From: Salinisphaera orenii subsp. halophila YIM 95161
GTDB taxonomy: Bacteria > Pseudomonadota > Gammaproteobacteria > Nevskiales > Salinisphaeraceae
NCBI RefSeq assembly: GCF_003732545.1
Contig: NZ_AYKF01000078.1
Coordinates: 1 to 41,541, forward strand
DNA: 41,541 nt
Direction of reading: 5' to 3'
Both the position numbers and the translations under genes were made by a program. The notes under the pieces are model-generated. The model did no database searches. It worked only from the letters and a program-made list of their open reading frames with translations, and was not told the DNA's origin. Of this stretch, positions 2,500 to 21,772 are shown piece by piece (the first letter of the stretch is position 1; each line of letters starts with the position of its first letter).

Positions 2500-3285
2500 A
2501 TGAGCAAAAAACAGACAACATTCAGGCAGAAGTACCGTGATGCAACGCCGTTCTGGTACCGCGGTGAAGCCCATCTGGCGTTCACACTGATCTTCACGGT
2601 CGGCGTGATCATCTACTGTGCTTTTCAGATTGAAAATGCCACGTTCTGGCAATGGGCCGTGGTCGTGCCGATCTTCTTGTTCGGGAACTACGTCGAATGG
2701 GCCGCGCACCGCTACATCCTGCATCAGCCGATTAAGGGCTTGCGCATGATCTATAAGCGCCATGTCCAGACCCATCATCGCTTCTTTACGCATGACGATT
2801 TGTCATTTGAAGACCAGAAGGACTGGCGGGCACTGCTCTTTCCGCCTTTTGCTCCGGTGATGTTCGTATTGAGCGCGGTGCCAATTGCGCTGCTGATTAG
2901 CTGGATTTGGACCGCCAATACAGGCTATATCACCGTAATCACCATGGCTGGTTACTTTCTGATGTACGAAGGCTTGCATACGCTTTCGCACATTGAGGAT
3001 AGTCCATTCTTAGACAAGTTGCCGCTGGTTAACACGGTGCGTCGTATGCATGTCACCCATCATCACCCGGCGCTCATGCAGCAGCGCAACTTCAATCTGA
3101 CGTTTCCCATATGTGACGCGCTATTCGGCACCAGTGATCTCAAGCGCGGCCTATGGGGCACGTTATTTAACGGTAATAATGAAGCGTATATGGACCCACA
3201 AGATCGCCGTCGCTTCGACGAATATAAAGGGGGGAAGGACGAGACATGGCCGCCTGAAGAAGCGGTAAACGACGAGAGTAAGTAA
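2500..3285 (+). CDS. Fatty acid hydroxylase / sterol desaturase superfamily membrane enzyme
   Basis: A 261-residue integral membrane protein of the di-iron fatty-acid-hydroxylase superfamily, which hydroxylates or desaturates unactivated C-H bonds using O2. The histidine clusters that bind iron are visible: H70/H75 (HRYILH), H88/H92/H93 (HVQTHH), H160/H164 (HTLSH) and H184/H187-H189 (HVTHHH). They are set among hydrophobic segments near residues 24-42, 50-64 and 113-157. The family signature NFNLTFPICDALFGT follows. I chose the ATG at 2500 because of the GAGGAGAA ribosome site; an in-frame extension back to 2455 has no such site. The gene lies 28 bp before a TRAP transporter gene. The substrate is not deducible: sterol, carotenoid, lipid or another hydrophobic methyl compound are all possible. 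Confidence 0.85.
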   Translation: MSKKQTTFRQKYRDATPFWYRGEAHLAFTLIFTVGVIIYCAFQIENATFWQWAVVVPIFLFGNYVEWAAHRYILHQPIKGLRMIYKRHVQTHHRFFTHDDLSFEDQKDWRALLFPPFAPVMFVLSAVPIALLISWIWTANTGYITVITMAGYFLMYEGLHTLSHIEDSPFLDKLPLVNTVRRMHVTHHHPALMQQRNFNLTFPICDALFGTSDLKRGLWGTLFNGNNEAYMDPQDRRRFDEYKGGKDETWPPEEAVNDESK

Positions 3286-3313
3286 GGCTGCGTCGCAGTT
3301 TGAGGAACTGTTA

Positions 3314-4312
3314 ATGAAATTCAAAAAAAGTATTATCGAAGTACTGTTGGTCTCTTTCGTACTGGCTTTTAGTGCGTCGGCCGCCGCCAAAGATCTGCGC
3401 CTCGGTCTTATCGTGCCGAACTCGCATGCGTGGACCGCCGCAGCCCGGTCCATGGCCAAGGACTTGAAGGAGCAATCCGACGGCAAATACACCGTCAGCA
3501 TTTATCCGTCAGGCCAGCTGGGTAGCGAGGCGCGCATGCTGCAGCAGCTGCAGACCGGCGCCTTGGATATGGCCTTTTTGACGCTGGCCGAAATCACGAA
3601 TCGTGCACCCGAATTCGGCGCATTCTACGAGCCTTACTTGGTCGAGAATGTCGAACAAGCCGGGGAACTCCTCAACGGCCCGACGGCGACGAAGATGCTC
3701 GATAACTTGCCATCCGAAGCGGGCGTTGTCGGGGTCGGCTACGGCATTGCCTCGATGCGCGTCATGTTGACGAACTTCCGGGCTACGAGCGCAGAGGATC
3801 TGAGCGGACGCAAGATACGAATCACACCTTTTCCTCCGGTTCGGGATTTTTACAATCTGCTGGGTGCCGCGTTCACACCCATGCCGCTACCCGACGTGTA
3901 CGACGCGTTGGCTAATGGCCAGGTCGACGGCGTCGATGCTGACATGGAGCTGGTCTGGAAATTGAAGCTCTACCAGCGCGCCCAGACAGTGTTGAACTCG
4001 AATCACATGATGTTTCCCGTCATCGGGCTCGTGTCCGGTCGCCTCTGGGCGCAGCTTAGTGAATCGGATCGAAAACTGATTTCTGGCGTGGCCAAGAAGC
4101 ATCTCAACGCGCTGTTTCCGAAATACACGAAAATACAGGCCGAGATGACCCGCAACGTCAAGAATGCCGGTGTCGACGTGGTGGATGTCGGTCCGGATTT
4201 CTTTGGCGACGTCACGGACGAATGGGACGTGCAGTGGACCCGCAAAGCGCCCGTGTTGAAAGACTTGAAGGCCGAAGCGGCGGCGATAAAACGCGAGGAC
4301 GCGCCGCAATAG
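3314..4312 (+). CDS. dctP: TRAP transporter substrate-binding protein, DctP family
   Basis: A 332-residue periplasmic receptor that captures an organic acid or similar solute and hands it to the DctQM permease for sodium-driven import. A signal peptide covers about residues 1-25 (KK, hydrophobic core, SASAAA). The body shows the DctP pattern: YPSGQLGSEARMLQQLQTGALDMAF, then DLSGRKIRIT with the arginine that usually clamps the ligand carboxylate, then DVYDALANGQVDGVDAD. It is followed by dctQ and dctM, which completes the transporter. Family assignment is firm; the ligand is unknown, although the neighbours suggest a carboxylate, alcohol or aldehyde precursor of a decarboxylation pathway. Confidence 0.93.
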   Translation: MKFKKSIIEVLLVSFVLAFSASAAAKDLRLGLIVPNSHAWTAAARSMAKDLKEQSDGKYTVSIYPSGQLGSEARMLQQLQTGALDMAFLTLAEITNRAPEFGAFYEPYLVENVEQAGELLNGPTATKMLDNLPSEAGVVGVGYGIASMRVMLTNFRATSAEDLSGRKIRITPFPPVRDFYNLLGAAFTPMPLPDVYDALANGQVDGVDADMELVWKLKLYQRAQTVLNSNHMMFPVIGLVSGRLWAQLSESDRKLISGVAKKHLNALFPKYTKIQAEMTRNVKNAGVDVVDVGPDFFGDVTDEWDVQWTRKAPVLKDLKAEAAAIKREDAPQ

Positions 4313-4374
4313 CGCAACGAAAGAGCGTGCGCGCCATCGACGTGTGTCATGTCGGCAGCCAGCGAAGACGATAA

Positions 4375-4962
4375 ATGATAATCCGCTCAATCCATGCGCT
4401 CAGTGATTTGATCGCGCGCTGCGAAGGCTTGGTGCTCCGGGCCTTGGTCTTGGTGCTACCGGTGATGGTGCTGATAAATGTCACGGGCCGAGCGTTTCGG
4501 TCACCGGTTTACTGGATGGACGAACTTGCCGTGCTCAGCATGTGCTGGCTGGCAATCATCGGGATGTCGCTCACGCTTAAAACGCGAGATGCGGTCGCCG
4601 TGACCATGGTGCAGGATGCATTGCCGCCGCGGCTGACCAAACTGCTTCGTGTGCTATCGGACGCGATCGTATTGGGATTTGCGATCGCACTCGTGGTGTT
4701 TTGCTATCTCTGGTTCGATCCACTACTGCTCGTAAAGGTCGATTTCGATCTCAAGGCATTCGCCGCGCAATCGTTCAACTACGTCTATGACGAGCCTACT
4801 TCCACGCTCGGCGTACCGATGTTCTGGTTCTGGCTGATCGTGCCGGTCGCTGCTTGTACTTGTGCGGTGCATGCGTTGTCCAATTTGCTGCGCACCCTCT
4901 TGCAGCAACCGGCCGCCCCCGCATCCGACTCTCCGATTGCCTCGAGCGGAGCGGATACGTGA
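4375..4962 (+). CDS. dctQ: TRAP transporter small permease subunit, DctQ family
   Basis: A 195-residue inner-membrane protein with about four hydrophobic segments (roughly residues 19-36, 50-64, 98-116 and 144-172). It has the DctQ-type core: VTGRAFRSPVYWMDELAVLSMCWL, then a conserved polar stretch before helix 3. It forms the small domain that partners DctM. The stop codon overlaps the GTG start of dctM by 4 bp (GTGA), so the two should be translationally coupled. The C-terminus is a short Ala/Pro/Ser-rich tail. Confidence 0.9.
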   Translation: MIIRSIHALSDLIARCEGLVLRALVLVLPVMVLINVTGRAFRSPVYWMDELAVLSMCWLAIIGMSLTLKTRDAVAVTMVQDALPPRLTKLLRVLSDAIVLGFAIALVVFCYLWFDPLLLVKVDFDLKAFAAQSFNYVYDEPTSTLGVPMFWFWLIVPVAACTCAVHALSNLLRTLLQQPAAPASDSPIASSGADT

Positions 4963-6224
4963 TACCTGCCGTATTTGTCGCATTGTTGCTTATCGGGCTG
5001 CCGATCGCTCTGGTACTGGCAGTGACCGCGATGGTCTATATCTATACCAGCGGCAATTCCGTGTTGTTCCTATCGTTTCCGCAGCAATTCTTTGGCGGTT
5101 TGAAGAACTACGGGTTGTTGGCCATTCCGCTGTTCATGATGGTCGGCGAGTTGATGAACGAGGGCGGCATTACGCGTCGACTCGTCGCTTTTGCATCGGT
5201 GTTCGTCGGCGCGGTTCGGGGTGGGCTCGCATATATCAACATCATCGCCAACATGGTGTTGGCGTCCATCGTCGGCTCGGCCAACGCGCAAGTCGCGGTG
5301 ATGGCGCAGGTCATGGTCCCCGAGATGGAGAAAAAAGGCTACGACCGTGGTTTCGCGACTGCGACCACCGCTGCCGGCGCGTTGCTCGCTCCGGTCATTC
5401 CGCCTTCGATGTTGTTCGTTATTTTCGGTGTGTTGGCGCAGTTGTCGATCGGCGACTTGTTCATTGCCGGAATCATTCCCGGCCTGATGATGGCCGTAGG
5501 CTTCATCGTCGTCATCGCCTTGTTGGGGCTGCGCTACAACTATCCTGCGAGCGAGCGTCTGAGTCGTTCCGAGAAGATCGCCAACGTCATGGCGAGTATT
5601 CCGTCGCTGGTGGTCCCGACGGTGATGATCGGCGGAATTCTCCTCGGCTTGACCACGCCCACGGAAGCGGCTGCGGTTGGCGCAGCAATGGCCGCTCTGG
5701 TAGGCCGGTTCATCCACGGGGAGATGAAATTAGACCGCTTGGGTGACATGTTGCTGCGTGCTGCGCTCAACAGCAGCGTCGTGCTGGTCCTGGTTGCAGC
5801 GGCTGCCGTGTTCGGTTGGGTGATCGTCTACGAAAACGTACCTCAGCAGCTTGCGGACTTGATGCAGAACCTCACCTCGGATCCCTTTATTTTCATGATG
5901 CTGGTCATGGGATTGCTGTTGTTGGTGGGGATGGTGCTTGATGGCATCGCCGCACTCATTCTACTGGTGCCGATCCTGTTGCCGGTGGCGACGAACGTCT
6001 ACGACATCAACCCTTATCACCTCGGTGTCGTGATGTGCATCAACTTGACGCTGGGGCTGCTGACCCCGCCGGTGGGCGCGGCGCTTTACGTGGCAGCGCG
6101 TGTGACCGGCTGCAAGCCGGGCGACATCGTTCGGCCGCTGTTGCCATTTCTGCTGGTGACGATGCTGATTCTAGTGATTATCTGCTGGCAGCCGGCGCTT
6201 GTGACCGGGTTCGTGAATTACTGA
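4959..6224 (+). CDS. dctM: TRAP transporter large permease subunit, DctM family
   Basis: The transport-channel subunit, 421 residues from the GTG at 4959. I chose this start because it overlaps the dctQ stop and gives the usual DctM length with the family N-terminus (IPAVFVALLLIGLPIALVLA). An in-frame upstream extension to 4854 lies wholly within dctQ. Visible signatures are the GGLAYINIIANMVLASIVGSANAQVAV region, LLAPVIPPS, and LTLGLLTPPVGAALYV near the C-terminus. About a dozen hydrophobic helices are present. With DctP and DctQ it forms a complete TRAP importer. Confidence 0.93.
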   Translation: MIPAVFVALLLIGLPIALVLAVTAMVYIYTSGNSVLFLSFPQQFFGGLKNYGLLAIPLFMMVGELMNEGGITRRLVAFASVFVGAVRGGLAYINIIANMVLASIVGSANAQVAVMAQVMVPEMEKKGYDRGFATATTAAGALLAPVIPPSMLFVIFGVLAQLSIGDLFIAGIIPGLMMAVGFIVVIALLGLRYNYPASERLSRSEKIANVMASIPSLVVPTVMIGGILLGLTTPTEAAAVGAAMAALVGRFIHGEMKLDRLGDMLLRAALNSSVVLVLVAAAAVFGWVIVYENVPQQLADLMQNLTSDPFIFMMLVMGLLLLVGMVLDGIAALILLVPILLPVATNVYDINPYHLGVVMCINLTLGLLTPPVGAALYVAARVTGCKPGDIVRPLLPFLLVTMLILVIICWQPALVTGFVNY

Positions 6225-6274
6225 CCGAACGGTTTGGGCGTAATAACTACGGGCAATTCAAAGGAGCGCTTTGT

Positions 6275-7033
6275 ATGAATCGATTGGAGGGAAACGTAGC
6301 CATCGTCACCGGTGGCGCGCAGGGGATCGGGGCGGCCTATGCCCATGCGTTGGCCGCAGAGGGTGCACGGATCGTGATCGCCGACGTGTTGGACGGCACC
6401 GCTGTCGCCCAAGCGATCGAAGCCGAGGGCGGACAGGCAATATCGGTTTGGACCGACGTGTCGGACGAAGCGTCGACGCAGGCGATGGTCGATGCCGCAG
6501 TCGAACGGTTTGGGCGGGTCGACATACTTGTGAATAACGCGGCTATCTACGCCTCTCTGTCCCTTAAATCGTTCGAGAAGATCGATATCGCCGAATGGGA
6601 CAAGGTCATGGCGGTCAACGTGCGGGGCCCGTTCATCTGTGCCCGGGCGGTCGTTCCGGTCATGCGGGAGAACGGCTATGGCCGCATCGTGAATATTTCA
6701 TCCGGAACCCCGTTCAAGGGTACGCCCAATCTCATGCACTACGTCACATCCAAGGGGGCGATTCTGGCTCTGACGCGCGCTCTCGCCCGCGAAGTTGGTG
6801 GCGACGGCATATGTGTCAACACGCTGGCACCGGGCCTGGTACTCAGCGAAGGCGTGATCGAGAACGCCGATATGCGTGATGCGTTGACCGCGCCGGTTCT
6901 CGCCAGTCGTGCGATCAAGCGCGACCAGATGCCGGAAGATTTGATCGCACCGCTGATTTTTCTCTCCTCCACCGACTGTGCATTCATGACGGGCGAGACG
7001 GTGGTCGTCGACGGCGGGTCGGTCATGCACTGA
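6275..7033 (+). CDS. Short-chain dehydrogenase/reductase (FabG-like)
   Basis: A 252-residue classical SDR that oxidises an alcohol or reduces a ketone with NAD(P). The Rossmann motif TGGAQGIG is at residues 12-19. Asp37 (IVIAD) after beta-2 points to NAD rather than NADP. NNAA (87-90), N115, S142/S143 and the catalytic YVTSK (Y156, K160) are all present. The ATG at 6275 follows AAGGAG at 6260-6265. An in-frame extension to 6035 overlaps dctM and is rejected. It sits between the TRAP genes and an aldehyde dehydrogenase, so I infer oxidation of a primary or secondary alcohol in the same pathway. Confidence 0.9.
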   Translation: MNRLEGNVAIVTGGAQGIGAAYAHALAAEGARIVIADVLDGTAVAQAIEAEGGQAISVWTDVSDEASTQAMVDAAVERFGRVDILVNNAAIYASLSLKSFEKIDIAEWDKVMAVNVRGPFICARAVVPVMRENGYGRIVNISSGTPFKGTPNLMHYVTSKGAILALTRALAREVGGDGICVNTLAPGLVLSEGVIENADMRDALTAPVLASRAIKRDQMPEDLIAPLIFLSSTDCAFMTGETVVVDGGSVMH

Positions 7034-7099
7034 CCTGAATGTCGGGCTAGTGAATGAGCCGTGCGGCAGAGGTTTCAGCGCAGCGTACAGGAGTCGAAC

Positions 7100-8569
7100 A
7101 TGAGCGATATGACGACACTGCATTACATCAATGCAAAGGCAGTTTCATCGGAGAACAATGCAATTGCCGAAAGTTTCAATCCCAATAATGGTGAGCTGGT
7201 CGGCACGTTCGCCGACGGCGGCCGTCGGGAAGCAGAGGCCGCGGCGGAGTCGGCTCGACACGCATTTTTCGCCTCCGACTGGGCTCAACAGCCACGCCAG
7301 CGTGCAGCGGTCCTTCTCGCATTCGCCGAAGGCGTGGAAAAGCGACAGCGCGAGCTGGCGACTCTGATGGCCCAGGAAACCGGAAAGCTTTTCAAGGCCG
7401 CCTGGGCTGAATTGTCGGGCACCGTGTCGGAGCTGCGTTTCTACGCCGGCCTGGCGCGAACGATCTTCGGTCGAACCACGGAAGTCGAGCCGGGCTCGTT
7501 ATCGTTGCTCATGCGAGAACCCGCCGGCGTTGCGGGAATCATAGTGCCGTGGAATGCGCCTGCGATTCTGCTGGTTCGTTCGTTGGCGCCCGCCATGGCG
7601 GCGGGCTGCACCAGCGTCGTCAAGCTCTCGCCGCAATCGGCGCTGTTCCAGAGCGCGTTGCTGCAGTGTCTTGCAGAAATCGACAGTCTGCCCGCGGGCG
7701 TCGTCAACTGGTTTGCCGAAACAGGCAGACAAGGCGGCGAAGCGTTGGTCGATTCGCCGCACGTGGATGTCATCAGCTTTACCGGCAGTTCGCCGGTGGG
7801 TCAGGCGATCATGGCGTCCGCGGCCCCGACGCTGAAACGTTTGAATCTTGAACTCGGCGGCAAGGCACCGTGCGTGGTGTGTGCCGATGCCGACCCACAG
7901 GCAATCGCCCCGCGTTTGGCGGCCGCTGCAACGATCGCCTCGGGGCAGCAGTGCACCGCTGCCGATCGTGTGCTGGTGCACGAGAGTCTGCTCGATCCGA
8001 TGCGCGATGCGCTGGTTTCGGCATTACGAGCCATACGGGTTGGCTCGGCCATGGCAGAGGACAGCCAGATGGGGCCGCTGATCGATTGTGAGAGTCGCGA
8101 CCGCATTCGACAACGGGTCGATCAATCACGCGCTGACGGAGAAGTGATTCTGGAAGGGGATATTCCCGCGCATACACCCGAAGGCGGCGCATTTCTTTCA
8201 CCCAGTCTGGTTGAAGTCGAAGACGTCAATTCACCCTGCATCCAGGAAGAGTTCTTCGGGCCCATCTTGAATCTGGAAAGTTTCGATACGGATGAAGAAG
8301 CCGTGTCGCGGGCAAACGTAAGCCGGTTCGGACTGGCAGCGAGTGTTTGGACTCACGACGGCGCTCGCGCGATGCGAATTTCGCGTGCTCTGCGTAGCGG
8401 CACCGTGTGGATCAACGATCACAACAAACTTTTTCCGGAAGCCGAGACTGGCGGGTTCGGAGCGAGCGGCTTCGGGCGCCTGCACGGGGCTGAAGCCATG
8501 ATGGAGTTTCTGGAAACCAAACATGTGTATCAAGACGTCGGGCGTATCAAGGGCGCCGATTTCGATTAG
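7100..8569 (+). CDS. NAD(P)-dependent aldehyde dehydrogenase
   Basis: A 489-residue ALDH-superfamily enzyme that converts an aldehyde to its carboxylic acid. Key sites are PWN (150-152), FTGS (227-230), the general base E251 in LELGGK, and the nucleophile C285 in GQQC. The EEFFGP motif near residue 390 is also present. The ATG at 7100 has an ACAGGAG ribosome site; a 13-residue in-frame extension to 7061 lacks one. It follows the SDR by 66 bp, the usual alcohol-to-aldehyde-to-acid order, and precedes the UbiD decarboxylase. Substrate unknown. Confidence 0.93.
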   Translation: MSDMTTLHYINAKAVSSENNAIAESFNPNNGELVGTFADGGRREAEAAAESARHAFFASDWAQQPRQRAAVLLAFAEGVEKRQRELATLMAQETGKLFKAAWAELSGTVSELRFYAGLARTIFGRTTEVEPGSLSLLMREPAGVAGIIVPWNAPAILLVRSLAPAMAAGCTSVVKLSPQSALFQSALLQCLAEIDSLPAGVVNWFAETGRQGGEALVDSPHVDVISFTGSSPVGQAIMASAAPTLKRLNLELGGKAPCVVCADADPQAIAPRLAAAATIASGQQCTAADRVLVHESLLDPMRDALVSALRAIRVGSAMAEDSQMGPLIDCESRDRIRQRVDQSRADGEVILEGDIPAHTPEGGAFLSPSLVEVEDVNSPCIQEEFFGPILNLESFDTDEEAVSRANVSRFGLAASVWTHDGARAMRISRALRSGTVWINDHNKLFPEAETGGFGASGFGRLHGAEAMMEFLETKHVYQDVGRIKGADFD

Positions 8570-8673
8570 AGCGCAATGTCACTTATGACCTATATCGCAA
8601 CATTTTTGGATCAGACGATGATTGAATTTTTGTTACGCATCGGCGGCACGAGGTCGTGTCGAGGAGTTCACGA

Positions 8674-10068
8674 ATGAGTGCCGGTACACAAGCGGTGACG
8701 TCGCTGCGCGCCTGGTTGGAGCGCATGGCCCATACAGACCGTCTCGCCGTTACGAAATCCGGCGTTGCGCTGCGTTATGAGGTTGCCGCGATCGCCAAGC
8801 GCCTGGATGGCCACCAAGCGGTCGTGTTTCCAGAGCCAGACGGCCACGCTATTCCCGTGGTATCGGGGCTTGTGGCGCGCCGGGCGTGGATTGCCGAGGC
8901 GATGGGCGTGAGTGAGTCGGCCATGTTGTCGCACTTCCAGCACGCGGCCAGGAATCCATTGCCGTGGCGCGAAATCGCGGATGCGCCGGTACAGGCTGAA
9001 GTGCATCACAGCGTCGACCTGAAGCGCATGCTGCCCGCGCCGACTCACAACGAGCACGATAGCGGGCCGTATATCACCGCGGGTCTTTTGATCGCGCGTA
9101 ATCCGCGCACCGGGGCGCAGAACGTATCGATCAACCGCTGTCAGATCAGCAGCGAAAACCGTATGGGCGTGCTGATTCTGCCGCGCCATGCGCACGCGTT
9201 CTACGAGTCCGCCGAAGCGGCAGGCGACGCGCTGGAAGTGGCAGTGGTGATCGGCGTCGACCCGATGACTCTGCTCGCGTCCCAGGCCATCGTGCCGATC
9301 GACCACGATGAGTTGGAGATATCGGGCGCATTGCGGGGCGCGCCGCTTGATGTGGTCAAGTGCGTGTCCAACAACGTTCGCGTGCCGTCCGAAGCCGAAA
9401 TCGTGCTCGAAGGCCGCATGTTGCCGACCGTGCGCGAGCCGGAAGGCCCGTTCGGTGAATTTCCGCAGTATTACGGCCCCCGTGCCGATCGCCACGTAAT
9501 GGAAGTCGACGTGATCACGCACCGCGAGCGGCCCTTGTTCCACACTATCGTCGGCGGCGGTCTCGAGCACCTGTGGCTGGGTGGCATTCCTCGCGAGGCG
9601 ACGCTGCTCGATCACTTGCAGCGCAGCTTTCCGAGCGTCGTCGATGTGCACCTGCCGGTGGGCGGCGTTTGCCGTTACCAGCTGATCGTGCAGATCGAGC
9701 AGCGCCAGGAAGGCGAGGCCAAGAACGTGATCATGGGCGCATTTGCCGGTCATTACGACATCAAGCAGGTGATCGTCGTGGACCGCGACGTGAACATGCA
9801 CGACCCCAACGAAGTGCAGTGGGCGATTGCGACGCGTTTCCAAGCGGACCGTGATCTGATGATGATTTCGAATGCTCAGGGGTCGAAGCTTGATCCGTCG
9901 GCACGCGACGGCGTCAGCGCCAAGCTGGGGCTGGACGCGACTGTGCCGATGAGCGCTGAGCCGTTCGATTTCACGCGTATCCGCGTGCCGGGAGAAGACA
10001 CCGTGGGTCTGGGCGAATGGCTGGCCGAGGATCCCTTGGCTCGGCTCGAATCGGTGCTGGGGTCATGA
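8674..10068 (+). CDS. UbiD-family prenylated-FMN decarboxylase
   Basis: A 464-residue UbiD-family enzyme for reversible (de)carboxylation of unsaturated or (hetero)aromatic acids, using prFMN made by UbiX. N150 and R155 (NVSINR), E215 (DELEIS) and the E257/E262 pair (EGPFGE) have the same spacings as N168, R173, E233, E277 and E282 of fungal Fdc1, as I remember them. Cofactor, metal and acid-base residues therefore appear intact. The start at 8674 follows CGAGGAG. Its stop overlaps the ubiX start (ATGA). Placement between catabolic dehydrogenases and transporters argues for a degradative role rather than ubiquinone synthesis. Pyrrole-2-carboxylate, furoate-type or phenolic-acid decarboxylases are the relatives to compare. 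Confidence 0.9.
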   Translation: MSAGTQAVTSLRAWLERMAHTDRLAVTKSGVALRYEVAAIAKRLDGHQAVVFPEPDGHAIPVVSGLVARRAWIAEAMGVSESAMLSHFQHAARNPLPWREIADAPVQAEVHHSVDLKRMLPAPTHNEHDSGPYITAGLLIARNPRTGAQNVSINRCQISSENRMGVLILPRHAHAFYESAEAAGDALEVAVVIGVDPMTLLASQAIVPIDHDELEISGALRGAPLDVVKCVSNNVRVPSEAEIVLEGRMLPTVREPEGPFGEFPQYYGPRADRHVMEVDVITHRERPLFHTIVGGGLEHLWLGGIPREATLLDHLQRSFPSVVDVHLPVGGVCRYQLIVQIEQRQEGEAKNVIMGAFAGHYDIKQVIVVDRDVNMHDPNEVQWAIATRFQADRDLMMISNAQGSKLDPSARDGVSAKLGLDATVPMSAEPFDFTRIRVPGEDTVGLGEWLAEDPLARLESVLGS

Positions 10069-10649
10069 CGCCGAGCGCGACTCCGAAAGCGCGCATGGTC
10101 GTCGGTATCACCGGCGCGTCGGGAATCGTGCTCGCGATCCGCTTGCTGGAAACGTTGCGGCGGTTGGATATCGAGTCACACCTGGTCATGAGCCGGGCCG
10201 CGAAGATGACGCTGCGCTACGAGACCGACCGCAAGGCAGCCGATATTCATGCGCTCGCGGATGTCGTGCACGCCATCCGCGATATCGGTGCGCCCATTTC
10301 GAGCGGCTCGTTTCGCACCCTCGGGATGATCGTCGTGCCTTGTTCGATGAAGACACTCGCCGAGGTCGCAACGGGGGTGACCGGCACGCTGCTTTCGCGT
10401 GCGGCCGACGTAACGCTCAAGGAACGCCGTAGGTTGGTACTGATTCCCCGCGAGACCCCGCTCCACGCCATGCACCTGCGCAACATGCTCACCGTGACCG
10501 AGATGGGCGGCGTGATCGCGCCGCCGGTGCCGGCTTTCTATAACCGGCCGGAGAGTCTCGACGACGTCGTCGATCACTTGGTCGCGCGCGCACTGGATCT
10601 GTTCGGCCTCGATGCCCAACTGATGCAGCGCTGGGGTGAAGACGAATAA
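10065..10649 (+). CDS. ubiX: UbiX-family flavin prenyltransferase
   Basis: A 194-residue flavoprotein that prenylates FMN to make the prFMN cofactor used by UbiD enzymes. The glycine-rich GITGASG (14-20) binds the flavin phosphate. SSGSFRTLGMIVVPCSMKTLAEVATG and LIPRETPLHAMHLRNMLTVTEMG are the UbiX signatures. The ATG overlaps the ubiD stop by 4 bp, so it is coupled to the decarboxylase it supplies. It may be a dedicated second copy beside a housekeeping ubiX elsewhere, but this cannot be seen from the window. Confidence 0.93.
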   Translation: MTPSATPKARMVVGITGASGIVLAIRLLETLRRLDIESHLVMSRAAKMTLRYETDRKAADIHALADVVHAIRDIGAPISSGSFRTLGMIVVPCSMKTLAEVATGVTGTLLSRAADVTLKERRRLVLIPRETPLHAMHLRNMLTVTEMGGVIAPPVPAFYNRPESLDDVVDHLVARALDLFGLDAQLMQRWGEDE

Positions 10650-10676
10650 GAAACGAGCGATCGGAGGAGATGGAAC

Positions 10677-11687
10677 ATGAATATTAAACGTCTTATACAG
10701 GCCGTGATAATCGGTTCGAGTGTGGCGGTGACCGCGGTATCCAGCGCGCAGGCACAGGCCGACGAGCCGGTGAATTTGCGGGTGACATCATTCCGCCAGG
10801 GCTCGAGTTGGTACGTATATGGCGTGACGCTGGGCGAACTGCTGCGTCGTCACCTGCCCAAGGGCTCGACCATCGATACACCGCCGCTGGGCGGTGGCAC
10901 AGCGAATCCGCTGCTGATCGAGCGTGGCCGCGCAGATATAGGCCTGAGCTTTTCGGTCGTGAACCGCTGGGCGCGCGAAGGCACGGAGCTGTTCGACGCA
11001 CCGCAGGACAAGCTGCGTGCCCTGATCGGCGGGCTGGATCAGTATTATCTGGGCATTGTCGCGAACAAGTCAAACGCCGGCCCGACACTCGACAGTTATG
11101 TGAACGACACGGTTTCGGAGCCTCGCGTGATGTTATTGCGCAAGGGCAGTTTCGGCTCCTTTGCCGGTGAACAGATACTTGGCGAGATCGGCGCCGATGA
11201 AAACGCCGTGGAAGATCGCGGCGGCCGCTATACGTTCACCGATTTCTCGACGGTGAAGTCGGCGTTTCCGGCCGGCCGTACCGACCTGTTCATCCAGGTT
11301 ATAACCCGCGGCCATCCAGCGATCACCGAGATCGCAGAAACGAGCGACGTGTCGTTCCTCGAACCCAAGGCGTCCACGCTCGACGCCATGAAGAGCAAGC
11401 ACGGCTGGGAACAAGCCACGCTCGATGCCGGCGCGTTTCGGGGTCAGGACAAGCCGCTGACGCTGCCTGGCACGACGAGCACGATCATCGTGTCCGCGGA
11501 TATGTCGGATGAGCTGGCGTATCAGATCGTCAAGACGGTTTGTGAAAATCAGGATGCGTTCCGCGCCGGGCACAAGGCGCTACAGAACTTCGACTGCGCG
11601 ACCAAGGCCTGGAAGTCCGAGAATCTCGGGCTGCCGCTGCACGAGGGCGCCAAGCGCTACTACCGTGAACAGGGCTGGTTGAAATGA
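10677..11687 (+). CDS. TAXI-family TRAP transporter solute-binding protein
   Basis: A 336-residue periplasmic receptor of the TAXI branch of TRAP transporters, which is unrelated in detail to DctP. A signal peptide ends near residue 27 (AVSSAQAQA). The middle shows the TAXI pattern GGGTANPLLIERGRADIGLSFSVVN and later FADFS-like TFTDFSTVKSAFPAGRTDLFI. A strong GGAGGAG ribosome site precedes the ATG. The fused permease follows 25 bp downstream, completing a second importer. It is likely to serve a different compound, or a different stage of the same pathway, from the DctPQM system. Confidence 0.88.
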   Translation: MNIKRLIQAVIIGSSVAVTAVSSAQAQADEPVNLRVTSFRQGSSWYVYGVTLGELLRRHLPKGSTIDTPPLGGGTANPLLIERGRADIGLSFSVVNRWAREGTELFDAPQDKLRALIGGLDQYYLGIVANKSNAGPTLDSYVNDTVSEPRVMLLRKGSFGSFAGEQILGEIGADENAVEDRGGRYTFTDFSTVKSAFPAGRTDLFIQVITRGHPAITEIAETSDVSFLEPKASTLDAMKSKHGWEQATLDAGAFRGQDKPLTLPGTTSTIIVSADMSDELAYQIVKTVCENQDAFRAGHKALQNFDCATKAWKSENLGLPLHEGAKRYYREQGWLK

Positions 11688-11712
11688 ACCTCGCGCGAGC
11701 GCTCGACCGGAC

Positions 11713-13683
11713 ATGAGTGAATCGTCAGATACCTCTGCGAATACCGATAGCGAGCAGAAACCGGCGGATGCGCTGGCCCTGGGCGGCTGGCGTGATCTGT
11801 GTCGTCCGGCGCCGCTGGTCGCGCTCGCTTGGGCGTTGCTTCAGCTGCTCATCTTCGTTTGGCCGGACATGGACATCATGGTGCGGCGTGCCGGCCACGT
11901 CGCATTCGCCACGGCCCTGACATGCCTGTTGATGGGCAAGGTGACCGGTTTTATGGCGGGGCGGTGGTTCTACCGCGCGCTCGCCTGTATCGCGCTGTTG
12001 CCGCCGATCTATATTTTCATCGAGCTGGATCGGATCTACGATCGGATTGTGCAGCTCGATCCGGTGCTGATCGGCGACTATGTGTTTGCCTGTGCCATGC
12101 TGGTGTTGCTGCTCGTGGCGGCGCTGCGTCGTGCCGGCTTGGGTATGTTCGTGCTGGCCGTTGTGTTCATTGCCTATCAGCTTTTCGGCGGCGACATGCC
12201 GGGCGTGCTCGGGCACAACATGTCCGGTTTTTCGACGTTCATCGAGGTTCTGTTTCTGACTGAGCGGGGGATATTCGGTATCCCCACTGCGGTCTCGGCT
12301 GAAATCGTATTCTATTTCATATTATTTGCCGGCATCTTCGATGCCTATGGCGGCGGCCAGCTGATTGTGGATCTGGCCATGCGTTTGACCGGTCGGCAGG
12401 TGGGTGGCCCGGCGAAGGCGTCGGTGATCGCATCGGGACTTACGGGCAGCGTGTCCGGCAGCGCCGTCGCCAACGTCATGAGCACGGGCATCTTCACCAT
12501 TCCGTTGATGCGCCGGGTGGGCTACAACTCCACCTTTGCGGCGGCCACGGAGTCCGTGGCGTCCACTGGTGGTCAGATCCTGCCGCCGGTGATGGGAGCG
12601 GGTGCGTTCATCATGGCCAATTTCCTGCAGATTCCTTATCAAGAGGTGGTTCTGGCTGCCTTGGTGCCGGCCCTGCTGTATTTCGCGAGCCTGCTGTTCG
12701 TGGTGCATTACCGCGCACGGCGTGATGAGATCAGCATGCTCGGCGCGGATGAGGTGGGCGACTGGCGCGTTGCCCTCAAGGCGCGCTGGCATCTGCTGGT
12801 GCCGTTGATTTGGCTGGTGGTGGTCATCGTCTCCGGGTTGGCCGTCGCCGAAGCCGCCGTTCAGGCGAGCATCTTGACCGTCGTCATTGGCACGCTGCGG
12901 CGTGGAACACGCCAACGGCCGCTTGAAATCATCCAGGCTTTGGTACGAACCAGCGAGCGGGCTCTGTCCGTGGCGCTGCCCTGTGCGGTGGCAAGCGTGA
13001 TCGTTGCGGTGATCGCGTTCACCGGTTTGGGTACGAAGTTCACGTCGCTGATTGTGGCCATGTCGTCAGGGAGCCTGGCCCTTGCGCTGATTCTGTCCGC
13101 GCTTGGCAGTTTAGTGCTGGGCGCAGGCATGCCGACCACATCGGCTTATATTATGGCAGCGGTGCTTATAGCTCCCGCGCTAGTCAACTTCGGTCTCGAC
13201 CCGACCGTTGCGCACCTATTCGTGTTCTATATTTCGATCATGTCGATGGTCACACCGCCCGTGGCTCTGGCCGCCTATGCAGCGTCCACGATTTCAGGTA
13301 GCCGTCCAGGGCCGACCGGCTGGTGGGCGTTCTATCTCGCAACGCCGGCGTTGGCTATTCCGTTCGCCTTCACCTTGCACCCCGAACTGGTTACCTGGTC
13401 TTCCGCGAGTGGTTTGGCATGGGCCCTGTTGCAAGTGGTCACTGCGTGCTGGGCGCTGGCTGTTGCCGTCCCGGGCTGGCTTGGGCGGTCATTGCACTGG
13501 GCCGAGCGCGGCATGTTCGCGGGCGCGGGCATCGCCTGCTTCCTGCCGTTGATGTGGCTCTCGATCGCCGGGTTTTTCGTGCTCGCTGCGTTGGTTGGCG
13601 TGATACGCCTTGGCGCCTCCTCATCCGGTGCCGCCGCCGGGGGCGCATCCAACGAGCGGCAACGACGGGGCCAGTCGAGGTAA
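11713..13683 (+). CDS. TRAP transporter fused permease (4TM/12TM, DctQ-DctM fusion)
   Basis: A 656-residue inner-membrane protein. The first part (about residues 30-160) supplies a small-permease-like set of helices. The rest matches a DctM-type permease, including the GSVSGSAVANVMSTG and GGQILPPVMGAGAF segments and LGAGMPTTSAYIM near residue 475. Fused permeases of this kind normally work with TAXI receptors, and the TAXI gene is directly upstream. The C-terminal 120 residues add further hydrophobic helices and a low-complexity Ala/Gly/Ser tail. It ends 13 bp from the convergent SDR gene. Confidence 0.9.
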   Translation: MSESSDTSANTDSEQKPADALALGGWRDLCRPAPLVALAWALLQLLIFVWPDMDIMVRRAGHVAFATALTCLLMGKVTGFMAGRWFYRALACIALLPPIYIFIELDRIYDRIVQLDPVLIGDYVFACAMLVLLLVAALRRAGLGMFVLAVVFIAYQLFGGDMPGVLGHNMSGFSTFIEVLFLTERGIFGIPTAVSAEIVFYFILFAGIFDAYGGGQLIVDLAMRLTGRQVGGPAKASVIASGLTGSVSGSAVANVMSTGIFTIPLMRRVGYNSTFAAATESVASTGGQILPPVMGAGAFIMANFLQIPYQEVVLAALVPALLYFASLLFVVHYRARRDEISMLGADEVGDWRVALKARWHLLVPLIWLVVVIVSGLAVAEAAVQASILTVVIGTLRRGTRQRPLEIIQALVRTSERALSVALPCAVASVIVAVIAFTGLGTKFTSLIVAMSSGSLALALILSALGSLVLGAGMPTTSAYIMAAVLIAPALVNFGLDPTVAHLFVFYISIMSMVTPPVALAAYAASTISGSRPGPTGWWAFYLATPALAIPFAFTLHPELVTWSSASGLAWALLQVVTACWALAVAVPGWLGRSLHWAERGMFAGAGIACFLPLMWLSIAGFFVLAALVGVIRLGASSSGAAAGGASNERQRRGQSR

Positions 13684-13696
13684 AGGTCGTCGGCGA

Positions 13697-14563
13697 CTAG
13701 TCGGTGCGATTACTCATCGATCCGGGCGGCGGGGGGACATCGTCGGGCACGAAGAAGTCGGGCCAGAGGTCCTGGCTGGCATCCACGGCGTACTGATCGA
13801 AATCGGTGACGCCGTGCTCGTGGAGCAGTACGTCGTCGATGCAGAATCGTCCGGTGAACGTGCGGCTGTCGCGCGTTAGCACGAGATGCGCGGCGTCGGC
13901 CACGATCTCGGGCTTGCGACAGTGCGCCATCATTTCCTCGCCGCCGATCAGATTGATCGCCGCCGTGGCGATGCCGGTCCGCGGCCAGAGCGCGTTGAAG
14001 GCGATGCCGTCATCGGCGAATTCCTCGGCCATGCCGAGCACGCACAGGCTCATGCCATATTTCGCGATCGAGTAGGCCACATGCGGGGCGAACCATTTCG
14101 GCTTCATGTCCAGCGGCGGCGAGAGCATGAGCACGTGCGGATTCGCGGCTTTCTTCAGGTAGGGGATGCATTTCTGGCTGACCAGGTACGTGCCGCGCGT
14201 GTTGATCTGGTTCATCAGATCGTAGCGCTTCATCGGCGTTTCTTCGGTGCCGGTCAGCGAGATGGCGCTGGCGTTGTTCACGCAGATATCGATGCCGCCG
14301 AAATGTTCGGCAGTGTGGCGTACCGCGGCTTCGACCTCGTCCTCCTCGCGGATGTCGCAGACGATCGGCAAGGCCCGGCCGCCCGCGGCCTCGATCTGCT
14401 CGGCGGCGGTATGGATCGTGCCGGGCAGCTTCGGGTGCGGTGTATCGGTCTTGGCCGCGATCGCCACGTTGGCGCCGTCGGCCGCGGCGCGCAGGGCGAT
14501 GGCCAGGCCGATGCCGCGCGAAGCGCCGGAAATGAACAGGGTCTTGTCGCTCAGTCCGTTCAT
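13697..14563 (-). CDS. SDR family oxidoreductase (HSDL2 / citronellol-dehydrogenase-like)
   Basis: A 288-residue SDR with SGASRGIG (12-19), NNAS and a YSIAK catalytic pair. AAKTDTPHPKLPGTIHTAAEQIEAAGG is a stretch typical of the HSDL2-like branch, members of which are often named citronellol or citronellal dehydrogenases. It is the last gene of a minus-strand operon and follows another SDR by 31 bp. The C-terminal 35 residues are Asp/Pro-rich. Cofactor and substrate are not assigned. It is much more GC-rich than the SDR at 6275 and is not an obvious part of that pathway. Confidence 0.82.
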   Translation of the reverse strand: MNGLSDKTLFISGASRGIGLAIALRAAADGANVAIAAKTDTPHPKLPGTIHTAAEQIEAAGGRALPIVCDIREEDEVEAAVRHTAEHFGGIDICVNNASAISLTGTEETPMKRYDLMNQINTRGTYLVSQKCIPYLKKAANPHVLMLSPPLDMKPKWFAPHVAYSIAKYGMSLCVLGMAEEFADDGIAFNALWPRTGIATAAINLIGGEEMMAHCRKPEIVADAAHLVLTRDSRTFTGRFCIDDVLLHEHGVTDFDQYAVDASQDLWPDFFVPDDVPPPPGSMSNRTD

Positions 14564-14594
14564 GGCTATGCCTCGGTCGGAGGTGGGTACGGGT

Positions 14595-15413
14595 TCAGCC
14601 GCGATCGCCGCGGGAGGGCAACGCGAAACGCATCACGCGATCGATCAGCCACGGCGACAGGCCGCCGGGGGCCAGCCGACTGGCGCGCATGAGCATCCGG
14701 TACGATAGCCCCGGCACCACCTGCGACTTGCGGCCCAGGCCCTTGAGGCCGGCTGCGACGACGTCCTCGGCGTTCATGATCGAGGCCCGCAGGGGCGACG
14801 GCCAGCGGCTGGGGTCGACGTCCGCGTGTTCGAGAAACTCGCTTTCCGTCAGCCCCGGGCACAACGAAACCACGTCCACGCCGTCGCGGGCGAGCTCCTC
14901 GTGCAGGCCTTCGCCGAGGTAGCGGTTCCAGGCCTTGGTCGCACTGTAATGCGAGAACTGCGGCGTGGGCACGATGCCGGCGATGGAGGCCAGCATGATG
15001 ATGCCGCCGCGGCGATCGTCGCGCATGCGCGAGCCGAAATGATGCGCCAGAATCAGCGGGGCCCGGCAGTTGAGGGCGAGCATCCGGAGTTCGTCGTCCA
15101 GATCATGGTCGAGGAAGTCGCCGGTGACACCCGCGCCGGCGTTGTTGACCAGAAGCCCGATGTGGCGCGTGCCGAGCGCCTCGGTCAGCGGGGTCAGGAA
15201 ATCCGGGTCGGTGAGGTCGGCCGCGATCGTGAGCGTGCGCACGCCGTGCCGGGCCTCGATCTCCTTGCCGAGGGCCGCCAGTCGGTCGCGCCGACGGGCC
15301 ACGAGGGCGACATTGAGCCCGCGGGCCGCGATCTGGCGCGCGAACTCGGCGCCGATGCCGGCGGAGGCGCCGGTGACGAGAGCCCAGGGGCCGTATTGTT
15401 CCGCGAACGCCAT
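14595..15413 (-). CDS. Short-chain dehydrogenase
   Basis: A 272-residue SDR with VTGASAGIG near the N-terminus and ALVARRRDRL after beta-2, where the arginines favour NADP. NNAGAG and the SHYSATKAW catalytic motif are also visible. The C-terminus has a hydrophobic, basic tail (YRMLMRASRLAPGGLSPWLIDRVMRF), as in DltE/YqjQ-like SDRs that associate with membranes. It is downstream of tspO by 22 bp in the same operon. Substrate unknown. Confidence 0.85.
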   Translation of the reverse strand: MAFAEQYGPWALVTGASAGIGAEFARQIAARGLNVALVARRRDRLAALGKEIEARHGVRTLTIAADLTDPDFLTPLTEALGTRHIGLLVNNAGAGVTGDFLDHDLDDELRMLALNCRAPLILAHHFGSRMRDDRRGGIIMLASIAGIVPTPQFSHYSATKAWNRYLGEGLHEELARDGVDVVSLCPGLTESEFLEHADVDPSRWPSPLRASIMNAEDVVAAGLKGLGRKSQVVPGLSYRMLMRASRLAPGGLSPWLIDRVMRFALPSRGDRG

Positions 15414-15435
15414 GCGTCGAGTCCTCCGTTGCCGG

Positions 15436-15909
15436 TCAGGCGCCGCTCCAGTTCAGCCAGAGCAGGCCCGCGTTGAGATAGACGGCGTAACTCACCCAGG
15501 CCAGATAGGGCGCGAGCAGCACGCCGGCGAGTCGGTCCGCGCGCCAGAACGCGGCCAGAGTGGCCGCCAGCGCGATCCAGAGCGCGACAATGACCAGCAG
15601 CGCCCAGCCCAGCGCCTGGGCGCCGAAGGCGATCGGCATCCACAGGGCGTTGAGTGCCAGCTGGAGTGCGAACAGGCCGAGCGCGGCCCCCACGCCGGCC
15701 GTGCGCCAGACCCGCCAGGCCGCGACGGCCATGGCGATGTAGAGCAGCGTCCAGGCGATCGGAAACGCCACGTCCGGCGGCGTGCCGGCGGGCTGGTTCA
15801 GGCTTTCATACCAGACACCGGGCGGGAAAATCGCCCCCGTCAGAGAGGTCAGCGCCACCGCGATGCCGCAGATCAGCGCGGCGCGGACACCGTGGAATCG
15901 TTCAGGCAT
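15436..15909 (-). CDS. tspO: TspO/MBR family tryptophan-rich sensory protein
   Basis: A 157-residue membrane protein with five helices, the TspO fold, which binds porphyrins and cholesterol-like ligands and in bacteria is linked to tetrapyrrole turnover and stress. Typical segments are TGAIFPPGVWYESLNQPAGTPP, FPIAWTLLYIAMA, LNALWMPIAFG and YLAWVSYAVYLNAGLLWLN. I chose the ATG at 15909; a GTG at 15918 would add three residues. The start overlaps the end of the upstream membrane-protein gene. A CbiX-like tetrapyrrole chelatase gene is two genes upstream, a plausible functional link. Confidence 0.9.
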   Translation of the reverse strand: MPERFHGVRAALICGIAVALTSLTGAIFPPGVWYESLNQPAGTPPDVAFPIAWTLLYIAMAVAAWRVWRTAGVGAALGLFALQLALNALWMPIAFGAQALGWALLVIVALWIALAATLAAFWRADRLAGVLLAPYLAWVSYAVYLNAGLLWLNWSGA

Positions 15910-16180
15910 GGAAGACACCCCGCCGGGTCGGAACCCACCATGTGAAACCGAAGATCAGTGTGGCCATGATGGTCACGCCCCAGCCGATGCGGCGTTCGCG
16001 CACGGCGATGAAGGCCAGCGGGAATTCGAGCATGTGCAGCATGATCACGATCGCCCACAGCTGCGCGACCGGATGGGCGAAACCCTGGCTTGCATAGAGA
16101 TACACGCCGAAGGCATGCAGCACCAGCGTGATCAGGTTGCACGCCAGCCAGAAACGGCGATTGTCGGCGAGTGCGCCCAT
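15902..16180 (-). CDS. Small membrane protein of unknown function
   Basis: A 92-residue protein with about three hydrophobic helices (roughly residues 10-30, 40-60 and 66-82) and short basic loops (RERR, PTRRG). I do not recognise the family with certainty; it resembles small four-helix DUF membrane proteins. It lies 4 bp after the CbiX-like gene and overlaps tspO, so it is clearly part of that operon. A role near TspO in the membrane is inference only. Confidence 0.7.
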   Translation of the reverse strand: MGALADNRRFWLACNLITLVLHAFGVYLYASQGFAHPVAQLWAIVIMLHMLEFPLAFIAVRERRIGWGVTIMATLIFGFTWWVPTRRGVFHA

Positions 16181-16184
16181 CCGC

Positions 16185-16568
16185 TCAGCTGGCCGCGGCG
16201 GTACTGTCCGCGAGCATGGTCAGCAGCAGCCGCGGGATGGCATCCGAGGTGCCCAGATACGGCGCGATCTCGATCCGGACGTCCGGATGCTCCGCCTGCT
16301 TGCCGGACACCGCGTCCGGAATGTCCTCGCTCACGTGCCGCCCGGCGGCGAGAAAATACGGCAGTACCGTCACCTGGGTGGCGCCGGCGTCGATCAGGCG
16401 CTGTATGCCGCCCGGGATGTCGGGCTCGGCGAGCTCGAGGAACGCGCAGTCGATGAGCGCGAAGCGCGCATCGTCCGCTTCGCGCACGCGGGACGTCAGA
16501 TCACGGACTTCGTCGTTGGAGGCCTCACGGCGGCTGCCGTGGGCCACCAGCAGGAGAGACTTTTTCAT
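16185..16568 (-). CDS. CbiX-like sirohydrochlorin chelatase domain protein
   Basis: A 127-residue single-domain protein of the CbiX/SirB type. Members insert cobalt, nickel or iron into sirohydrochlorin-like tetrapyrroles, and small ones act as dimers. LLLVAHGSRR at the N-terminus carries the metal-binding histidine. The LPYFLAAGRHVSEDIP segment carries the second conserved histidine. It is the first gene of a minus-strand operon with a membrane protein and TspO. It is divergent from sufT, with a 75-bp shared upstream region. The actual tetrapyrrole and metal are unknown. Confidence 0.85.
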   Translation of the reverse strand: MKKSLLLVAHGSRREASNDEVRDLTSRVREADDARFALIDCAFLELAEPDIPGGIQRLIDAGATQVTVLPYFLAAGRHVSEDIPDAVSGKQAEHPDVRIEIAPYLGTSDAIPRLLLTMLADSTAAAS

Positions 16569-16643
16569 GCTCTGGATGGTATCAGACAGCGGCGCGGGTG
16601 CTTGTTAGACTATTCGCCCTCATCGCAATGCCGGTGGTCCATC

Positions 16644-17195
16644 ATGCAGATGCCCTCCAACGAACCCGTCACCTTCCAGCGCGACTGCGAGGCCGTGCTG
16701 ATCCCGGCCGGCGACACGGTCGAGATCCCGGTGGGCACGCACGGCAACATCACCCAGGCACTGGGCGGCTCGTTCACCGTCTATATCGCCGGCAATCTGA
16801 TCCGGATCGCCGGCGAGAATGCCGACGCCATCGGCCAGGAGGTGCCCGAGCCCCTGACACTGCCGGACGGCGCCGGGGACGACGACGTCGAACGGATCGT
16901 CTGGGAGCAGATGCGGACCGTGTTCGACCCGGAGATTCCGATCAATCTGGTCGATCTCGGCCTGATCTATCGCTGCGACTTCGATCACAGCGATCCGGAG
17001 GCCCGGGTGGTCCACATCGACATGACGCTGACGGCGCCGGGCTGCGGCATGGGCGACATCCTCGTCGACGACGTGCGCAGCAAGGTGCGGATGGTGCCGA
17101 CGATCGGCCAGGTCAACGTCGAACTGGTCTTCGAGCCGCCGTGGACGATGGAGATGATGAGCGACGCCGCCAAACTGCAGGTCGGCATGCTCTGA
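16644..17195 (+). CDS. sufT: SufT-like Fe-S cluster assembly protein (MIP18 family)
   Basis: A 183-residue protein. The N-terminal 70 residues match the SufT-specific extension (PAGDTVEIPVGTHGNITQALGGSFTVYI). The C-terminal part is a DUF59/MIP18 domain with VFDPEIPINLVDLGLIY and LTAPGCGMGD, whose cysteine is implicated in cluster maturation in this family. The ATG at 16644 was chosen over an in-frame extension that overlaps the divergent gene; a second ATG at 16650 is also possible. TAGACT at 16606-16611 could be its -10 element. It stands alone here, without other suf genes. Confidence 0.9.
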   Translation: MQMPSNEPVTFQRDCEAVLIPAGDTVEIPVGTHGNITQALGGSFTVYIAGNLIRIAGENADAIGQEVPEPLTLPDGAGDDDVERIVWEQMRTVFDPEIPINLVDLGLIYRCDFDHSDPEARVVHIDMTLTAPGCGMGDILVDDVRSKVRMVPTIGQVNVELVFEPPWTMEMMSDAAKLQVGML

Positions 17196-17338
17196 AGCCG
17201 CCGTTGCCCGGGCGGGCAGCGACGATCCCGTGGGCTTGTTTGCGTGCTAGCCGCGGGCGCGGGACGCAACCGTCCTATTTCCGTTCCCGAGCGCGGCGAG
17301 GTCGCGCGCCCGGAACCGGCGACGATGAACGGTACCGG

Positions 17339-17367
17339 GCGGTCGCCGGCCCGGATCCGGCGACCGC
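17339..17367 (-). terminator. Strong hairpin between convergent sufT and receptor gene
   Basis: An 11-bp perfect stem (17339-17349 with 17357-17367) and a 7-base loop, placed just after the stop of the minus-strand receptor gene. It lacks a T-run, so it may be a processing or rho-assisted end rather than a classic intrinsic terminator. The rest of the 180-bp gap (17196-17376) shows nothing else. Confidence 0.45.
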
Positions 17368-17376
17368 CGCGCAAGG

Positions 17377-19659: not shown

Positions 19660-19676
19660 ACCCTCGTCCTTCTGTC

Positions 19677-19689
19677 GCTTATAGTTATC
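19677..19689 (-). promoter_or_regulatory. Partial Fur-box-like site
   Basis: On the minus strand GATAACTATAAGC matches 10 of 13 positions of two adjoining Fur hexamers, 18 bp before the receptor start. The third, inverted hexamer is poor. It would fit iron control of a siderophore receptor, but it could equally be a -10 region (TATAAG). Confidence 0.35.
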
Positions 19690-19829
19690 GGCCCGCCGGA
19701 CGGCGGCACCGGGACGAATCTAGCGTGGCCGCGGGTGCGCCACCATGGGAAAACTTCCCGACAGAACGGCGCGGGCCGCCCGCGTGTCGGAAGGTGCGCC
19801 CGGCCGTGCCGACCGCGGCCCGGTCGGCG

Positions 19830-21685: not shown

Positions 21686-21732
21686 GCGGTCCTCGATGGA
21701 CGATCGTGCCGCGGCGGCGCCCCGTGATTCCG

Positions 21733-21738
21733 TATACT
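21733..21738 (+). promoter_or_regulatory. Probable -10 element for the DUF4112-bcp pair
   Basis: TATACT lies 34 bp before the ATG at 21773 in the divergent gap. No good -35 is visible at the right spacing. Confidence 0.35.
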
Positions 21739-21772
21739 CGGCCTCAACACGAAAACCACGCATTATCCATAT

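Follow-up and report, generated by a model that had tools for sequence, protein, structure and literature searches.

The upper hmf pathway, which acts on the sugar-derived furan 5-hydroxymethylfurfural (HMF), consists of PsfG, PsfA, HmfF and PsfC and leads from 5-hydroxymethyl-2-furoate (HMFCA) through 5-formyl-2-furoate (FFCA) and 2,5-furandicarboxylate (FDCA) to 2-furoate, as set out in the available part of PMC12064950. Gene deletions in Pseudomonas umsongensis GO16 described there point to PsfG converting HMFCA to FFCA, PsfA converting FFCA to FDCA, and HmfF converting FDCA to 2-furoate; the gene table of the same source gives the order hmfF-hmfT-psfG-psfA-psfB-psfC (PMC12064950).

A run of ten co-directional genes in Salinisphaera orenii

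We analysed a 41,541-nucleotide stretch of DNA from Salinisphaera orenii subsp. halophila YIM 95161 (contig NZ_AYKF01000078.1; hereafter, the window), in which ten genes in one direction occupy positions 2500-13683 (Table 1). A first-pass annotation, made from the sequence alone, had proposed that a hydroxylase, an SDR, an ALDH, a UbiD and a UbiX form a single co-directional run at 2500-10649. All five enzymes are where it placed them and pass Pfam cut-offs (PF04116 FA_hydroxylase, adh_short, Aldedh, three UbiD domains, and Flavoprotein for UbiX), and the ALDH residues E251 and C285 that it named are present (numbering from MSD). The five genes do share a direction; however, they are not contiguous, since DctP, DctQ and DctM (3314-6224) lie between the hydroxylase and the SDR, and the run extends beyond 10649 to 13683 with a TAXI receptor and a fused TRAP permease. 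The intergenic gaps are, in gene order, 28, 62, overlap, 50, 66, 86, -4, 27 and 25 nt, and these short distances make it plausible that the ten genes form one operon.

Table 1 Predicted genes of the run at 2500-13683 in the window
Feature	Position	Strand	Basis
PF04116 membrane di-iron hydroxylase, 261 aa, proposed methylfuran hydroxylase	2500..3285	+	Pfam, ten-His pattern, model, hmf-linked clade
DctP, TRAP receptor	3314..4312	+	
DctQ, TRAP small permease	4375..4962	+	Pfam
DctM, TRAP large permease	4959..6224	+	GTG at 4959 is the likely start (by reading)
PsfG-like SDR (putative HMFCA dehydrogenase)	6275..7033	+	Pfam; 57% to P. umsongensis DSM 16611 (L042)
PsfA-like ALDH (putative FFCA dehydrogenase), E251 and C285	7100..8569	+	Pfam; 54% to L042
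HmfF-like UbiD, putative 2,5-furandicarboxylate decarboxylase	8656..10068	+	Pfam; 6h6v E 4.8e-136; 66% to L042
UbiX flavin prenyltransferase, HmfG/PsfC-like	10065..10649	+	Pfam; 57% to L042
TAXI-type TRAP receptor	10677..11687	+	
Fused TRAP permease	11713..13683	+	

We infer that the operon region looks acquired, because a transposase pair lies upstream of the run at the left end of the contig (806-2031; OrfA by PF01527, OrfB by eye), because G+C content is 54-63% at 2-14 kb and 64-72% beyond, with a step near 14 kb, and because the UbiD is rare among relatives. At E 1e-100, the genome itself was the only one of 85 in the order with a UbiD match; the 13 further genomes of its genus had none. 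Minus-strand genes at 13697-21763 seem to have no connection with the operon; they encode two SDRs, TspO, a TonB-receptor plug protein and a strictosidine-synthase-like protein.

The SDR, ALDH, UbiD and UbiX genes match the upper hmf pathway

Compared with P. umsongensis DSM 16611, identity is 57% for the SDR (252 residues), 54% for the ALDH (481 residues), 66% for UbiD and 57% for UbiX. The DSM 16611 genes lie in the order UbiD-MFS-SDR-ALDH-LysR-UbiX, which is that of P. umsongensis GO16. Among solved structures, the window UbiD is nearest to 6h6v (E 4.8e-136) and 6h6x (2.2e-133), followed by AnInD (6.5e-62). We take 6h6v to be HmfF, whose substrate-site residues are His296 and Arg304; the window UbiD retains the two (as H305 and R313), and the AnInD alignment has other residues there. 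Another contig of the same genome, C81, carries homologues of hmfA, B, C, D and E together with a BenE-type transporter and an AraC-type regulator; comparing its ends with those of the window by blastn revealed no join. A second, partial HmfA-like stretch lies at 4019-4360, at the end of a further contig of this genome (C149, 4.5 kb; locus L098), with an ALDH-like gene close by; it is 63% identical over 83 residues to an Arhodomonas protein.

The gene run almost certainly belongs to an hmf pathway. Its predicted substrates are 2,5-substituted furans rather than sterols or terpenoids, because the SDR, ALDH, UbiD and UbiX match the upper hmf set and hmfABCDE are present in the genome. Removal of a C-methyl group from a sterol or terpenoid, at which the first-pass annotation had hinted, would follow a similar order of reactions, and PF04116 includes sterol C4-methyl oxidase; with four partners that match the furan set in both sequence and order, and with hmfABCDE in the genome, we regard this explanation as very improbable. 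We likewise rejected sterol C4 demethylation, a process with sterol-type partners and a decarboxylase other than UbiD, as the partners here are of the furan type and the decarboxylase is a UbiD. The proposed logic of alcohol to aldehyde to acid, then decarboxylation, was right. The word "demethylation" is loose, since furandicarboxylate is symmetric and the CO2 may come from either substituent, not necessarily the former methyl. The enzyme combination had been put forward as new; its SDR-ALDH-UbiD-UbiX part corresponds to the upper hmf pathway as described in the available text of PMC12064950, and is known biochemistry, putative in this organism.

The hydroxylase is linked to hmf clusters by conserved neighbourhood

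We compared gene neighbourhoods for all 23 loci longer than 8 kb, including the window itself, that encode a hydroxylase at least 50% identical to that of the window. UbiD and other hmf genes are present in 22 of the 23 (here and in the counts below, near-copies mean that independent events are fewer than the counts), spread over alpha-, beta- and gammaproteobacteria and over several gene orders: the window, Arhodomonas, Alloalcanivorax (4), Pseudomonas (6), Bradyrhizobium (2), Pseudorhodoplanes, Sphingomonas, Dinoroseobacter, Caballeronia, Burkholderia, Cupriavidus (2) and genome G973. The exception, L086, is at the end of a Caballeronia plasmid and encodes a clade member outside any hmf cluster. 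The recurrence of the same enzyme families together in 22 of 23 loci shows that their grouping exceeds chance. The hmfA-E genes lie outside the four Alloalcanivorax slices and, for the window, on the other contig.

The alcohol-oxidising enzyme of the 22 clusters is PsfG in 16 and HmfH in 6 (in two of the 6, just past the first slice), which agrees with a remark of Donoso 2021, quoted in the available part of PMC12064950, that genomes have either PsfG or HmfH. The hydroxylase gene adjoins psfG in Alloalcanivorax, Pseudomonas and G973. Importers found beside it are of the TRAP type in the window, Arhodomonas, Alloalcanivorax, two Pseudomonas and Dinoroseobacter, of the MFS type in four Pseudomonas, and, as read from ORFs, of the ABC type in L144 (G973) and L046. 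When four Pseudomonas clusters are compared with those of P. umsongensis and strain TH10, the sole difference in the stretch is the hydroxylase gene between psfG and psfA.

Linkage was also assessed in a genome scan seeded by UbiD, from which the best 80 of 323 loci were kept. A hydroxylase at least 50% identical is encoded in 15 of these 80 loci, in one of them (L046) split over two frames. A whole-genome search of 50 of the 80 genomes gave a hydroxylase match at E 1e-15 in 26; in 15 of the 50 the identity is at least 56%, each time inside the UbiD locus, and the remaining 11 of the 26 have homologues of 34-43% only. These weaker homologues, like the second copies found in 4 of the 15 genomes, map to other contigs or are over 100 kb from the UbiD locus. 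Within the best 80 of 323, the hydroxylase is absent from 35 of the 46 UbiD loci with at least two of hmfA-D in the slice, and among 20 loci with a PsfG-like SDR in the slice it is present in 13 and absent from 7. Judged by this distribution, the hydroxylase is an add-on to hmf clusters, because most hmf loci, that of P. umsongensis among them, lack it. P. umsongensis uses HMF with no clade member, and hence the hydroxylase is not needed for HMF; in P. umsongensis and strain TH10 the sole homologue is 34-36% identical and located elsewhere in the genome. Alloalcanivorax balearicus (L052) has the TRAP-SDR-UbiD set with no hydroxylase, unlike the four other Alloalcanivorax loci, and no match at E 1e-15 was found elsewhere in its genome.

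Searches seeded by the hydroxylase gave a similar picture. Among 23 plasmid records with a match, 10 are at least 54% identical, and 9 of these 10 have UbiD within 11 kb (hypergeometric 3e-31, with kinship of the records ignored); in the other 13 (at most 43% identical to the window where listed), UbiD is near in none and is on the same record, far off, in one. In a sample of 249 Pseudomonas genomes whose centre genome is itself one with the hydroxylase, the hydroxylase (E 1e-60) was found in 3 and UbiD (E 1e-150) in 4, all 3 being in common. A sample of 398 genomes of the phylum yielded nine hydroxylase matches at E 1e-45, three at 60% or above (own genome included) and six at 35-44%; UbiD at E 1e-150 was found in 5 genomes, including all three with the closer hydroxylase. 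Nine genomes holding only 33-44% hydroxylase homologues gave no UbiD match at E 1e-100. In 369 genomes of the class there were 7 hydroxylase matches at E 1e-30, strong only in the own genome and in one with Arhodomonas coordinates. Distant homologues, at most 44% identical, thus show no hmf linkage.

We conclude from gene positions that the hydroxylase is linked to hmf genes by conserved neighbourhood. The idea that it is a passenger gene is made unlikely by this linkage, which appears in both the UbiD-seeded and the hydroxylase-seeded searches. The first-pass annotation had tied the hydroxylase to the other enzymes by position only; the 22 of 23 loci now back that tie, and the outcome it named as refuting, absence of the hydroxylase from all related clusters, does not hold: the close orthologues form a single well-supported clade.

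This clade emerged from a tree of 46 rows, in which the 20 rows at 50% identity or above group together with support 100/99. The "≥50%" label was set by identity, not context; 19 of the 20 rows are in hmf loci, with L086 outside. Neither the tree nor the distance correlation includes the two broken L046 pieces; in the tree, the long branches of L132 and L134 join close to the root, apart from the hmf clade. Hydroxylase and UbiD distances across 21 loci are correlated (Mantel r 0.86, 0 of 5000 permutations), as expected for genes travelling together; a common ancestry of the host genomes would strengthen the correlation as well. In the sister clade (35-43% identical), a small DUF6166 (PF19663) gene is nearby in the slices of 15 of 19 rows, for example at L087 13023-13388, L156 11249-11554, L157 10627-10917 and L158 8593-8904, and such a gene is in none of the hmf-linked hydroxylase loci. 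Some sister-clade loci also encode TRAP or ABC importers and an ALDH or SDR.

A proposed methyl-oxidising entry to the hmf pathway

The hydroxylase scores 39.8 bits against PF04116 (cut-off 31) and has ten histidines in the family pattern, HX4H(70), HX3HH(88), HX3H(160) and HX2HH(184), of which at least 8 are invariant in alignment A1. Two homologues depart from the norm. That of Cupriavidus sp. KK10 (L159 8376-9167) has Leu for the second His of the first motif (window H75), and that of a Pseudorhodoplanes MAG (L046 11448-12265) is broken or mis-assembled, because it lies in two overlapping frames (56% and 63%). An AlphaFold2 model built with 20 sequences has pLDDT 90.4 and pTM 0.86. Its first four Foldseek matches in the PDB are yeast Scs7p chains (probability 1.00, TM 0.51-0.53, E 2.5e-3 to 4.4e-3), with none below E 0.001; no solved structure is related by sequence at E 0.3 or better, nor by profile up to E 1. 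Pfam revealed no recognised redox partner gene among the ten genes of the run. Genes adjoining the hydroxylase in G973 (L144) and L046 were considered as candidate redox partners, but read by eye as ABC importer genes instead.

Given that the hydroxylase occurs with either alcohol oxidiser, is frequently found beside psfG and importers, and is dispensable for HMF, we propose that a methyl compound is its substrate and the alcohol its product. In this scheme, TRAP transport would bring in a furan carboxylate, for instance 5-methyl-2-furoate, the cargo of either TRAP system being presumed. At the inner membrane, the PF04116 di-iron hydroxylase would then use O2 to convert the ring methyl to the alcohol, yielding HMFCA, with both substrate and electron donor assumed. 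The SDR (PsfG) would oxidise HMFCA to FFCA, the ALDH (PsfA) would oxidise FFCA to FDCA, UbiD (HmfF), with prFMN from UbiX, would release 2-furoate, and HmfABCDE, encoded on C81, would carry 2-furoate to 2-oxoglutarate. A plausible source of the substrate is 5-methylfurfural, which forms from 6-deoxyhexoses. We put the probability of this whole statement, an upper hmf pathway preceded by a methyl-oxidising step, at about 0.48; the role of the hydroxylase as a methylfuran oxidiser, taken by itself, has an even chance of being correct. More tentatively, the whole clade, so far unassigned, may consist of methylfuran hydroxylases that open the hmf pathway to 5-methylfurans; alpha-, beta- and gammaproteobacteria would then be able to take 5-methyl-2-furoate all the way to 2-oxoglutarate.

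Lipids are the usual substrates of the characterised PF04116 enzymes, and a small acid would be an unusual one. The locus could instead be an ordinary HMF cluster in which the hydroxylase, off the carbon path, alters membrane lipids and helps the cell to withstand toxic furan aldehydes. Its nearest fold, the fatty-acid hydroxylase Scs7p, and its absence from many hmf clusters are consistent with this; however, PsfG accompanies it in 16 of 22 clusters, its gene adjoins psfG in the three groups named above, and it belongs to a single clade nearly confined to hmf loci, and we consider the lipid explanation unlikely. The same chemistry might also act on another furan (2-methylfuran, 2,5-dimethylfuran, or a furfuryl or longer alkyl furan) rather than a 5-methylfuran acid or aldehyde. 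Such membrane enzymes do suit hydrophobic substrates, but the importers beside the hydroxylase are of acid-carrying types (TRAP, MFS HmfT-like, and the ABC importer read from ORFs), which makes such a substrate quite unlikely. It is improbable, finally, that the enzyme cleaves furan ethers such as 5-methoxymethylfurfural, where hydroxylation beside the ether oxygen would release HMF or HMFCA: a position before PsfG or HmfH fits equally well and PF04116 includes the ether-cleaving alkylglycerol monooxygenase, but nothing in the evidence is ether-specific, and no pterin-related gene was recognised by Pfam among the ten genes of the run.

If methyl oxidation is indeed its role, the hydroxylase would account for bacterial use of 5-methylfurans derived from 6-deoxy sugars such as rhamnose and fucose or from methylfuran fuels, would add a small-molecule hydroxylase to a family whose known members work mainly on lipids, and would offer a methyl-to-HMFCA step relevant to furandicarboxylate production. 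With this proposal, a gene with the vague annotation "sterol desaturase family" becomes a testable furan-catabolism enzyme, and natural pairs with and without the hydroxylase (P. iridis type and P. umsongensis; A. marinus and A. balearicus) allow direct testing. A literature search outside Donoso 2021 (the main hmf survey), Koopman 2010 and Crigler 2020 recognised no publication that describes such a hydroxylase within hmf clusters or the breakdown of 5-methylfurans through hmf genes, which leaves the hydroxylase entry step, with its presumed substrate, as the part that may be new.

Comparison with known systems

The window hydroxylase resembles the fatty-acid 2-hydroxylase Scs7p (4zr0, 4zr1) in fold and in type of histidine pattern, but the two are 18% identical over the aligned part and Scs7p is a lipid enzyme. 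Xylene-type methyl oxidation by XylM works alike, a membrane di-iron hydroxylase being followed by alcohol and aldehyde dehydrogenases; XylM, however, belongs to another hydroxylase family and acts on benzene-ring substrates, and the resulting acid is not known to be removed by a UbiD. The hmf cluster of P. umsongensis GO16 shares orthologues of the SDR, ALDH, UbiD and UbiX with the window, but has the MFS protein HmfT instead of TRAP; its gene table has no hydroxylase, the entry hyd being a putative hydrolase, and the words "hydroxylase" and "desaturase" are absent from the available part of the paper (PMC12064950). Cupriavidus basilensis HMF14 (hmfABCDE, hmfFGH) is like the window in furandicarboxylate decarboxylation by HmfF/HmfG and in the HmfABCDE lower route, but uses the oxidase HmfH instead of PsfG/PsfA, and the available part of PMC6604932 does not mention a hydroxylase. 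The hydroxylase-bearing hmf clusters of Arhodomonas, Alloalcanivorax, some Pseudomonas and Burkholderiales plasmids share the enzyme set of the window, with hydroxylases 54-78% identical to its own, and differ from it in gene order, importer type and the choice of PsfG or HmfH.
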